A stretch of DNA of 7,474 nucleotides from Methanosarcina sp. (lineage in GTDB: Archaea > Halobacteriota > Methanosarcinia > Methanosarcinales > Methanosarcinaceae), in the NCBI GenBank assembly GCA_017883485.1, contig JADGNM010000118.1, positions 1-7,474 on the forward strand, written 5' to 3'. The translations under genes were made by a program, and so were the position numbers. The notes under the pieces are model-generated. The model did no database searches. It had not been told where the DNA came from and saw only the letters and a list, made by a program, of their open reading frames with translations. Shown here one piece after another: positions 4,238-7,042 of the stretch; the first letter of the stretch is position 1, and each line of letters starts with the position of its first letter.

Positions 4238-4849
4238 ATGGACGCTATTGTAATGGCAGGAGGGTTCGGACAAAGGCTTGGAATGGGGGAAAAGCCGTGT
4301 GTTGAACTGCTCGGAAAGCCGCTCATAAGTTATGTAATAGATACTCTCAGAGCTTCAAAGGAAACTGATAGAGTCTTTGTAGCAGTCTCACCCGTAACAC
4401 CTAAGACCGAAATCATGCTTCAGGAGCGGTATAAAGGAGAGGTCAGGGTAATCAGGACTTTCGGAGGAAACTACGTCGGGGATATGATCTATGCGGTAGA
4501 GACTGCGCAGACTATTGGCCCTGTAATGATCATTATGTCAGATCTTCCCCTGATAAACTCAGAGCTTATAGATTTTGTAATCGAGAAATACAGGAAAGCA
4601 GGAACACCGGCACTCTCGGTATATGTCCCTATAGATATCTGTAAAGGGATCGGAATCAGGCCGGATACGGTTTTCAATAAGGATGGGAAACTTATCGTGC
4701 CGGTTGGAATCAATATACTTGACAGTTCTCAGATCAGAAACGAACAGGAAGACTTTAACCTGATACTTGAGAATCCAAAGCTAGCAATTAACGTAAATAC
4801 CGTAGAAGATTTGCAGCGCTGCAAAGATCAGATGCAGTGTACGAATTAA
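4238..4849 (+). CDS. cobY: GTP:adenosylcobinamide-phosphate guanylyltransferase
   Basis: Cytoplasmic nucleotidyltransferase (203 aa) that transfers GMP from GTP to adenosylcobinamide phosphate, giving adenosylcobinamide-GDP for CobS. Archaea use this enzyme in place of the bifunctional bacterial CobU; the characterised example is from Methanocaldococcus jannaschii. The N-terminal MAGGFGQRLGMGEKP (6-20) is the nucleotide-binding loop of the MobA/GlmU-like fold, followed by LLGKPLISYVID (24-35) and a metal-site motif SDLPLI (101-106). PVGINIL (155-161) and INVNTVEDL (184-192) close the fold. GAGGTT (4229-4234) serves as ribosome binding site three bases before the ATG. The alternative, a molybdopterin guanylyltransferase, is unlikely because of the cob neighbours. 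It lies 21 bases after cobS and 20 bases before the proposed sufC start. Confidence 0.93.
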   Translation: MDAIVMAGGFGQRLGMGEKPCVELLGKPLISYVIDTLRASKETDRVFVAVSPVTPKTEIMLQERYKGEVRVIRTFGGNYVGDMIYAVETAQTIGPVMIIMSDLPLINSELIDFVIEKYRKAGTPALSVYVPIDICKGIGIRPDTVFNKDGKLIVPVGINILDSSQIRNEQEDFNLILENPKLAINVNTVEDLQRCKDQMQCTN

Positions 4850-4857
4850 AATTACTA

Positions 4858-4863
4858 GAGGTG
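4858..4863 (+). promoter_or_regulatory. Strong Shine-Dalgarno sequence pointing to the ATT start of sufC
   Basis: GAGGTG ends six bases before the ATT at 4870, ideal archaeal spacing. The first conventional candidate, TTG at 4894, is 30 bases away, and the bases directly before it show no purine-rich site. Confidence 0.75.
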
Positions 4864-4869
4864 TCATAG

Positions 4870-5601
4870 ATTCTATCTTTAAAAAACCTGGTATTGAGCC
4901 GTGATGGGAAAAAAATTCTGCGTGGAATTAACCTTGAAGTCGGGGACCAGGAAATCCACAGCATCATCGGTTCAAACGGCGCAGGAAAAAGTACACTTGC
5001 ATACACCCTGATGGGACTTCAGGGCTATGAACATGAAGAAGGAAGCCTCACTTTTAATGGGGAAGACATTACAAAGCTAACGATCACCGAGCGTGCAAGA
5101 AGAGGTATAACTCTTGCCTGGCAGGAGCCTGCCCGCTTTGAGGGGCTGAAGGTCAGGGATTTTCTGGCAATCGGGGCAAAAGCCCGTGGAGGCATTACGG
5201 AAGAAGAGCTAAGAGAAGCCCTGATAAAAGTTGACCTCAAACCCGACAAATACCTGGATAGGGAAGTTGGAGAGACACTTAGCGGAGGCGAAAGGAAGCG
5301 TATAGAGCTTGCCTCCATAATTACAATGAAACCGAAGCTTGCAATCCTTGACGAACCTGATTCCGGAATTGATGTTGTCTCATTAAAGGAGATCATTAAT
5401 TTTATCCAGGCTCTCAAGGAAAACGGGTCTTCCGTACTCGTAATTACCCACAGAGAGGAAATTGCAGCAAGCTCGGATAAAGCATCTTTAATGTGCGAAG
5501 GGGCTATTCTCAAGAGCGGAGACCCCCTCGAAATTAGCGAATTCTTTAAAAACAGGTGCATACCCTGTGACAGCAGGGCATCTCCCCCTAAGGTGGTCTA
5601 A
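4870..5601 (+). CDS. sufC: Fe-S cluster assembly ABC ATPase SufC (SmsC), apparent ATT start
   Basis: Soluble ABC-type ATPase (243 aa from the ATT) that works with SufB in Fe-S cluster assembly. It has Walker A GSNGAGKST (34-42), Q-loop WQEP (Q85), signature LSGGERKR (137-144), Walker B LAILDEPDSGID (157-168, catalytic E162) and H-loop H194. From the ATT the protein begins (M)LSLKNLVLSRDGKKIL, the first beta strand and A-loop region expected of SufC. Starting at the TTG at 4894 would delete eight residues of that strand. No ATG, GTG or TTG lies between the in-frame stop at 4867 and 4894. The tail ends with NRCIPCDSRASPPKVV, a CxxC pair (C230, C233) I do not regard as usual. The minimal SufBC pair, also called SMS, is typical of methanogens. 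No promoter was found in the 20-base gap after cobY. Confidence 0.93.
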   Translation: MLSLKNLVLSRDGKKILRGINLEVGDQEIHSIIGSNGAGKSTLAYTLMGLQGYEHEEGSLTFNGEDITKLTITERARRGITLAWQEPARFEGLKVRDFLAIGAKARGGITEEELREALIKVDLKPDKYLDREVGETLSGGERKRIELASIITMKPKLAILDEPDSGIDVVSLKEIINFIQALKENGSSVLVITHREEIAASSDKASLMCEGAILKSGDPLEISEFFKNRCIPCDSRASPPKVV

Positions 5602-5603
5602 CA

Positions 5604-6566
5604 ATGAGCCAGGTTACTTTAAAAACGCTATCTGCGGAAATGGCAGAAATATCCTCAGCCTATACGGCAGCAGGGGGGGATGCTACAGTCCTCCATAAGC
5701 ATGAACTTGCAAGCCTTGTAGTAAGCGGAAATAGAGTGCTCAATGCAAACGGGACAGAAGGCATCGTGCTTGAAAAACATGAGACGGAACATGGAGTGGA
5801 CATTAAAATGACCATCAAGAAAGGGTACAAAATTCCGCTTCCTGTCCACCTCTGCTTCGGATTGGTCCCGAAAGACGGACTCCAGGAAATTAAGATGGAT
5901 TTCGTTGCCGAAGAAGACTCGGCTGTCGAACTCATAGCCCACTGTACTTTCCCTAATGCGGTAAACGTAATCCATAAAATGGATGCTCGAATACTTATCG
6001 GGAAGAACGCCTCGCTAAAATACACGGAAACCCACTTCCACGGCCCTCACGGAGGAATCCGGGTTATTCCGAAGGCCCTTATAAAAATCGAGGAGGGAGG
6101 CAGCTACTGCACTAATTTTTCACTTATTTCAGGCAGGGTAGGCTATCTGGAATTTGATTACAGCGTTGATGCCGAAAAAGATTCTATCTGTGAGATGGTT
6201 ACGAAGGTATACGGAAAGAAAAATGACAAAATAAAAATACTGGAAAAAATATCCCTTAATGGGGAAAATGCCCGAAGCGTAATTAAAAGTAGATTAGCCA
6301 TTACCGATAATGCGGAGTCGGAGTTCAGGGGGATTACCGAGGGTCGCGCTCCCAGAGCCAGGGGACACGTGGACTGCATGGAAGTTATTCAGGGAAACGC
6401 AAAAGCCGAGGCTATTCCCATTGTTCGTGTTGATAACCCTCTGGCAAAAGTAACCCATGAAGCTGCAATCGGCTGTGTGGATAAAAAAGAAGTCGAAACC
6501 CTCATGGCCAGCGGCCTTGAAGAAGACGATGCAATTGACATTATTGTAAAGGGAATGCTGGCCTGA
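5604..6566 (+). CDS. sufB: Fe-S cluster scaffold protein SufB (SmsB)
   Basis: Member of the SufB/SufD family (320 aa), the scaffold partner of SufC in the minimal two-gene system of methanogens. It is shorter than bacterial SufB, lacking most of the N-terminal region. Repetitive beta-strand sequence from about 60 to 270 fits the beta-helix core. The C-terminal part carries RARGHVDCMEVIQG (251-264), IPIVRVDNPLAKVTHEA (271-287) and the helix EEDDAIDIIVKGML (306-319). By order and spacing, C258 and H285 probably correspond to the E. coli SufB cluster-forming residues Cys405 and His433. The gene starts two bases after the sufC stop with AAGGTGG (5590-5596) as ribosome binding site inside the sufC end, so the two are translated together. 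No sufD, sufS, sufE or sufU is present in the window. Confidence 0.94.
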   Translation: MSQVTLKTLSAEMAEISSAYTAAGGDATVLHKHELASLVVSGNRVLNANGTEGIVLEKHETEHGVDIKMTIKKGYKIPLPVHLCFGLVPKDGLQEIKMDFVAEEDSAVELIAHCTFPNAVNVIHKMDARILIGKNASLKYTETHFHGPHGGIRVIPKALIKIEEGGSYCTNFSLISGRVGYLEFDYSVDAEKDSICEMVTKVYGKKNDKIKILEKISLNGENARSVIKSRLAITDNAESEFRGITEGRAPRARGHVDCMEVIQGNAKAEAIPIVRVDNPLAKVTHEAAIGCVDKKEVETLMASGLEEDDAIDIIVKGMLA

Positions 6567-6676: not shown

Positions 6677-7042
6677 ATGGTTGGCGAGATTACTATACTT
6701 GAAAGAAAACATTCTGAAAAAAACCTGCAACTTATAACAGGAAAGAAGGACATTTATGCTCATCGTCACGATATACCCGAAGAGATGTTGCTTTTAAGTG
6801 AAGTCATAGAAGATCCACTTAAACTCCCTTACCTGCTGGATACCTTCTATACCACTAATATAAGAAATGAAAAAGCCTTTCATTTTGCTCTCCTGCGAGT
6901 CCAGGTAGATTCCGACCTCAGGATGCACGAAGATCTCCAGAAATATCAGCAAAGGAAATATGTAGCCGAAACTCTGGAAAAACTGCTCTACGGGGAACTT
7001 ATGCTTTCGGTAGGGGAAACCTTAAGCATGGAAGCGGATTGA
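6677..7042 (+). CDS. Small protein of unknown function
   Basis: I do not recognise this 121-residue protein. It is very likely real: GAGGTGG (6666-6672) sits four bases before the ATG, the frame is clean, and a hairpin follows the stop. It is soluble, with no signal peptide, membrane segment or cysteine. The first 25 residues (ITILERKHSEKNLQLITGKK in 5-24) may form short strands. Residues 33-55 and 64-110 look helical and charged. Histidines at 12, 29, 31, 69 and 84 are scattered, with HRH at 29-31. Its link to the Suf pair upstream is only positional: a 110-base gap with repeats separates them, so it probably has its own regulation. Confidence 0.75.
   Translation: MVGEITILERKHSEKNLQLITGKKDIYAHRHDIPEEMLLLSEVIEDPLKLPYLLDTFYTTNIRNEKAFHFALLRVQVDSDLRMHEDLQKYQQRKYVAETLEKLLYGELMLSVGETLSMEAD

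Follow-up and report, generated by a model that had tools for sequence, protein, structure and literature searches.

Translation of sufC in the window (the whole 7,474-nucleotide stretch of Methanosarcina sp. DNA analysed here) almost certainly starts at the AUU codon at positions 4870–4872. A preliminary description of this DNA had proposed the AUU start in place of a downstream TTG, and the proposal is very likely correct, given the conservation of the codon in the family and the lack of a Shine-Dalgarno (SD) sequence at the TTG. As judged from sequence, the odd start is a trait of the Methanosarcina family and not a quirk of one species.

The start site of sufC is arranged on the plus strand as GAGGTG (4858–4863), TCATAG (4864–4869) and ATT (4870–4872). 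The sufC frame opens at ATT because an in-frame TAG stop (4867–4869) adjoins its 5′ side. From position 4870, the frame reads ILSLKNLVLSRDGKKILRG... and extends over 243 codons to a stop at 5599–5601. The 3′ end of the 16S rRNA, which was read in two same-genus genomes, is ...GGATCACCTCCT, and GAGGTG is therefore a six-base SD match with six bases to ATT. The sequence thus bears out the earlier account of a GAGGTG that ends six bases before ATT and of a TAG directly 5′ to it. One detail was missing from that account: a GTG inside the SD (4861–4863) is also in the sufC frame and is separated from ATT by the TAG. The next canonical codon after ATT is TTG 4894, and the claim that it lacks a ribosome-binding site also holds, as no anti-SD complement match of at least three bases is found 4–10 bases upstream of it. 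An mRNA hairpin over the sufC start was considered and rejected for the window, where a single-sequence fold of the RNA is weaker than the folds of shuffled sequences (z +1.09; 175 of 200 shuffles fold as well). The features of the region are as follows.

4238..4849, plus strand: cobY-like gene, with its stop 20 bases upstream of ATT
4858..4863, plus strand: Shine-Dalgarno GAGGTG of sufC (sequence; 16S 3′ end pairing; GAG GTG in 28 of 28 same-genus loci)
4861..4863, plus strand: in-frame GTG inside the Shine-Dalgarno, rejected as a start (stop before ATT in the window; stop directly before ATT in 17 of 41 loci)
4867..4869, plus strand: in-frame stop TAG directly before the start (sequence; codon −1 varied in 28 same-genus loci)
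4870..4872, plus strand: very probable ATT start codon of sufC (41 family loci; ATG in five of six outgroup rows and in two paralogs as read)
4870..5601, plus strand: sufC1/smsC, SufC-type ABC ATPase, 243 codons (family, sequence and fold comparison)
4873..4902, plus strand: predicted β-strand 1 codons (residues 2–11), seven lost with a TTG start (AlphaFold2 model, block 1–10 pLDDT 93)
4894..4896, plus strand: TTG chosen by gene callers, rejected as a start (Shine-Dalgarno lacking; 26 of 41 loci with a canonical codon at codon 8 or 9)
5591..5595, plus strand: Shine-Dalgarno AGGTG of sufB, within the end of sufC (sequence)
5604..6566, plus strand: sufB/smsB, partner scaffold, with ATG two bases after the sufC stop (frame and family search)

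The window contains cobalamin genes followed by sufC and sufB. The window SufC is closest to SmsC of M. jannaschii (MJ0035, PDB 9h78), with an E value of 6e-86 by sequence, an E value of 3.4e-30 and 59% identity by fold, and a TM score of 0.85 against 9h78 chain C. Against the TIGR01978 equivalog for bacterial-type SufC, the protein scores 189.1 bits and stays below the curated cut-off of 212.8. Consistent with an SmsC, sufC adjoins an SmsB/SufB-type gene at 5604–6566, for which the best family is SmsB NF052511 (E 1.7e-25), at 89.9 bits and thus far below the family cut-off of 650. The sufB start is used for the window only; a comparison of 40 loci, in which the first long frame close to the stop was chosen, gave some doubtful positions. 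The AlphaFold2 model of SufC, built with 21 sequences, has a mean pLDDT of 86.6 and places strand 1 at residues 2–11. In this model, a TTG start would remove residues 1–8 and with them seven residues of strand 1, or most of it, which supports the earlier statement that such a start cuts the N-terminal strand. A small gene after sufB (window 6677–7042), to which no Pfam or NCBIfam family is assigned, has ATG in the window and in the relative G024 and ATA in the relative G015.

A sufC-type match is present in 26 of 29 same-genus relatives (85–90% identity) and in other genera, and in 41 of the 111 genomes of a family search. Three genomes of the same-genus search (G010, G017 and G019) have no sufC match of the window type. 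In total, 80 sufC loci were located, of which L035–L063 belong to Methanosarcinaceae or close relatives. The family set used here comprises 41 loci (the window, L035–L063 and 11 non-duplicate loci from the same-genus search), 40 of which are distinct over the compared stretch, and its loci are not matched one-to-one with the 41 genomes of the family search. L001, L006, L007, L009–L012, L016–L018, L020–L022, L025, L026 and L031–L033 were dropped as duplicates, and L034 is an outgroup outside the set. L235–L238 also have ATT and are left out of the counts; some of them are probably repeats.

Codon 1 of sufC is ATT in 36, ATC in four and ATG in one of the 41 loci. By comparison only, a non-canonical and kept start codon of the infC/sigR kind is thus found in 40 of them. 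ATT and GAG GTG are both present in 28 of 28 same-genus loci. The preliminary description had suggested a species-specific G-to-T change at position 4872. A comparison with the other Methanosarcina sufC genes finds no G there but a T in every one of the 28 same-genus loci; this result, together with ATT or ATC family-wide, refutes the suggestion. A sequencing error in the window assembly is likewise rejected, since 39 other loci carry ATT or ATC at this place.

In the 28 same-genus loci, the codons on the two sides of the start behave differently. Codon −1 is TAG in 13 loci, TAT in nine, AAG in two, and CAG, TAC, GAG and TAA in one each; because stops and unrelated residues are found there, it behaves as non-coding. 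From codon 2 onward, changes are mostly synonymous or conservative. Among the 18 isoleucine columns (isoleucine in at least 90% of the 28 loci, first 200 codons), codon 1 alone is invariant, and the other 17 mix codons. The stops and the codon fixity exclude an internal isoleucine of a longer protein. Across the 41 loci, a stop lies directly before codon 1 in 17, and 20 have no in-frame ATG, GTG or TTG within 25 codons upstream; the canonical in-frame codon found there in the other 21 is mostly the GTG inside the SD. Seven loci (L047, L055, L056, L058, L059, L061 and L063) combine the lack of a canonical codon over these 25 codons with none at codons 8 and 9. In two of the four ATC loci (L057 and L060), an in-frame ATG stands five codons upstream, just before the SD and with no SD of its own, and this ATG could serve as the start instead.

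The SD of sufC matches over six or seven bases in 39 of the 41 loci, and its spacing is six in 37. For a rough comparison, a canonical candidate start with an SD of at least six bases in both genomes is found in 23 of 343 ortholog pairs (spacing limits 3–11 with the best site per gene, compared with 4–10 for the sufC loci). By this rough yardstick, the sufC SD is stronger than usual.

The start codon of sufC has likely changed from ATG to ATT, as read from a midpoint-rooted tree of 47 SufC proteins. ATG stands at the aligned place in five of the six outgroup rows and one codon earlier in the sixth (L066, Methanocaldococcus). In many of the remoter loci, most of which are bacterial, ATG lies at other offsets. 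Two SufC-like paralogs of the same genome also have ATG at the matching place by our reading, directly after a stop in one (L002) and inside a longer open frame in the other (L003). ATT and ATC alternate in an ANME-3-like clade. The only family locus with ATG, L054, is nested in the family and looks like a return to ATG because it is sister to an ATT locus (support 100/97). Its contig coverage is 3.1; the database entry P0024 (15 contigs), whose first residues fit L054, suggests that the ATG is real. AUU is therefore not indispensable.

Three other positions or modes of initiation were weighed against methionine initiation at AUU. The downstream TTG 4894, or a GTG one codon earlier, would make the preceding conserved codons a leader. 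Gene callers choose this region: the database cluster identical to the window protein, P0001, has 235 residues and starts at TTG, as had been predicted for the annotation, and P0003 and P0009 also start at the TTG or its neighbour. A canonical codon is found at codon 8 or 9 in 26 of the 41 loci, but the remaining 15 have none at either codon (L055 and L058 have TTG at codon 7). Moreover, none of the first three canonical codons downstream has an SD of at least five bases (best match 0 in 32 loci, three in seven and four in two), and codons 2–8, which encode most of strand 1, evolve as coding sequence. The TTG start, which is neither conserved nor equipped with an SD, is rejected and very improbable. 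Similarly improbable is initiation at GTG 4861 with read-through of the UAG, for example as pyrrolysine, which would give M-S-O-I-L-S-L. Methanosarcina decodes UAG as pyrrolysine, GTG TCA TAG ATT is in frame, the GTG is present in 28 of 28 same-genus loci, and some database entries, such as P0011, start at GTG where no stop intervenes. However, the stop is TAA in L028, L055, L058 and L061, codon −1 elsewhere encodes Y, K, Q, E, N, V or P, and the GTG is absent from six ANME-3-like loci; where present, it belongs to the SD and has none of its own. With TAG in only 13 of the 28 same-genus loci and TAA or sense codons in the rest, pyrrolysine read-through is refuted as a general mechanism. The least probable reading is a protein that begins with isoleucine, carried by an isoleucine tRNA that reads AUU and AUC. 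The 40 non-ATG loci do have ATT and ATC but no ATA; against this, ATG occupies this place in one relative, ATA or CTG is found in other genes, and initiation at AUU in bacteria is a known case that uses methionine.

If AUU is the start, many database entries would begin SufC at the wrong place and lack residues of the first strand of the ATPase, and a class of archaeal proteins would be given false starts by gene callers. Among the 56 nearest database entries read, starts are placed at GTG, at TTG or its neighbour, or at an internal methionine. For some relatives, the choice of the odd codon is already present in databases: P0019 and P0033, which are taken to match L051 and L061, start at the odd codon itself.

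Fixed odd starts are also found in other genes. In a screen of 1.2 Mb from each of two genomes, 553 reciprocal best ORF pairs were obtained, 343 of which remained after overlap removal, and gene families were assigned by Pfam and NCBIfam. Thirty pairs have a non-canonical codon with an SD of at least five bases in both genomes and no equally good canonical start. The screen is not a census because it requires a strong SD in both genomes. Thirteen of the 30 hits were read as DNA and four were accepted by eye; the remaining 17 were assessed only from their position. The accepted hits are sufC, aIF1A (CTG), CbiG (ATA) and a NifS/IscS-type gene (ATA). Nine of the hits read were not accepted. An ordinary start is visible in five of them (A1946, A1550, A1659, A48 and A1736), and A810 lies antisense to the end of the 16S rRNA. 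Conservation is poor in A1288, and A1656 and A853 alternate between ATG and ATA; these two were also taken from the six mixed-type pairs of the screen. The accepted genes other than sufC are located as follows.

L153:5803-6126, plus strand: aIF1A (loci L239–L258, L260, L261, L265, L259, L262–L264, L266–L268)
L133:868-1437, minus strand: CbiG N-terminal protein (loci L269–L291)
L116:11858-13024, plus strand: NifS/IscS-type cysteine desulfurase (loci L299–L318)

All 20 same-genus orthologs of aIF1A that were read have CTG and lack an in-frame canonical codon upstream; four of the 24 same-genus genomes searched gave only paralog-type best matches. Three paralogs have CTG at the same place, one of them (L260) with an in-frame ATG eight codons upstream. 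Within the order, two other families (f2 and f5) contribute seven further loci with CTG, of which L268 has an upstream in-frame ATG. In four of these seven loci, ATA precedes CTG by one codon, and database entries appear to start there (P0198 and P0200). Of the 24 same-genus genomes (G000–G023), 22 have two to five aIF1A matches and two have one; a few of the matches are fragments. Such numbers are high for an initiation factor. In cbiG, ATA follows CAGGAGGTC in all 23 same-genus loci, including that of the window's own genome (L289); these loci have no upstream in-frame canonical codon, and the first downstream is at codon 26 or later. The cbiG match of one incomplete genome (G009, L273) contains one TGA. 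In the NifS/IscS-type gene, ATA stands behind a GGAGG-like site in 19 of 19 loci found by one motif, the window's own genome included (L310), and in L300, found by another. The case is weaker here because five of the 19 loci have an upstream canonical codon and 10 have one at codon 5, farther from the GGAGG-like site. An aspartate dehydrogenase gene (L118:18812-19624, minus strand) has ATG in G015 and ATA in G024 behind the same SD.

The AUU start may act as a control on SufC. The initiator tRNA would pair with AUU through two of three bases, and the SD duplex would compensate for the poor codon pairing. The archaeal proofreading factors aIF1 and aIF1A would limit the yield, so the rates of synthesis of SufC (from AUU) and SufB (from AUG) may differ. 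Putatively, SufC is rate-limiting, and cells shift start-codon stringency to adjust it. On balance, we favour the combined reading of a family-wide AUU start, low SufC output and a response to stringency. Taken singly, low SufC output due to AUU is somewhat probable, and a role of sufC in sensing stringency is rather unlikely. In Sulfolobus, aIF1 is reported to help to discriminate against non-canonical starts (PMC6237735). A review lists the archaeal start codons as AUG, GUG and UUG, and the terms CUG and non-AUG were looked for in its available part and not found (PMC7531240). A wider loop is a speculative extension to which we give little probability: the aIF1A CUG would sense aIF1A's own activity, with the sufC AUU and the nifS/iscS and cbiG AUA as targets, as an archaeal infC/IF3-like loop in Methanosarcinales. 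If true, this loop would couple the supply of iron-sulfur clusters and of cobalamin to the stringency of start-codon selection.

Harmless drift competes seriously with control and has a substantial, although minority, probability. The AUU start would be real, and Methanosarcinales would simply accept AUU, AUC, AUA and CUG after a strong SD with no regulatory role. Several unrelated genes do have non-canonical starts, L054 has ATG inside the family, and ATG in one species corresponds to ATA in another both in the aspartate dehydrogenase gene and in the small gene downstream of sufB; such switching without clear reason in other genes of the genus fits mere tolerance. However, the codons of sufC (28 of 28), aIF1A (20 of 20) and cbiG (23 of 23) are unchanged in the same-genus loci, and they stay fixed even though one base change turns ATT or ATA into ATG.

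Published work on suf genes bears on the control reading from two methanogens. The sufC locus L028, from a genome that we take to be M. acetivorans C2A (G014), has ATT directly after TAA. Its position and strand indicate that it is probably sufC1 (ma0937) of PMC10500019, the available portion of which mentions a sufC1 start codon without giving its identity. According to the same portion, loss of sufC1B1 alone delays growth and the added loss of sufC2B2 restores it. Because sufC1B1 is deletable and the double deletion grows normally (PMC10500019), tight SufC control is not obviously needed. In M. barkeri, excerpts of PMC10846266 report that protein and transcript levels disagree for SufB and IscS and that SufC protein does not change significantly, with the suf paralog unstated there. 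The mismatch is circumstantial support for SufC control.

Selection is known to keep starts other than ATG, GTG and TTG in a few bacterial genes, in which such starts have a regulatory role. Among the matches listed from open-licence PubMed Central papers, no archaeal case of a selection-kept non-canonical start was found. With a gene set of this kind, which includes an initiation factor and belongs to methanogens that are amenable to genetics, the proofreading of start codons in archaea could be tested in vivo.

Three known systems resemble sufC in different respects. The minimal Fe-S system SmsC/SmsB of M. jannaschii (MJ0035) shares the protein family and the sufC-sufB pair but differs at the start, as the Methanocaldococcus-type loci (L066–L069) have ATG one codon earlier. 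In E. coli, infC has an AUU start that is sensed by IF3. As in infC, the AUU of sufC is kept in relatives, and an initiation factor gene with a fixed odd start is found in Methanosarcina's order. The preliminary description had drawn the infC comparison, which gains weight from the likewise fixed non-canonical start of that factor gene, aIF1A. Unlike infC, sufC does not encode an initiation factor, and the factor gene of the order is aIF1A with CTG, which is not an IF3 homolog. The partial text of PMC5472188 mentions the non-canonical start of infC and describes sigR of Streptomyces, with a GTC start that is IF3-repressed and a GTG inside the ribosome-binding site. The likeness of sufC to sigR extends to a genus-wide non-canonical start, a strong ribosome-binding site, annotators misled by a GTG within that site, and an adjacent downstream partner gene that has a ribosome-binding site of its own. 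The sigR case is bacterial, depends on IF3 and has been shown experimentally, whereas that of sufC is an AUU or AUC start of an Fe-S gene in an archaeon, traced by comparison (PMC5472188).
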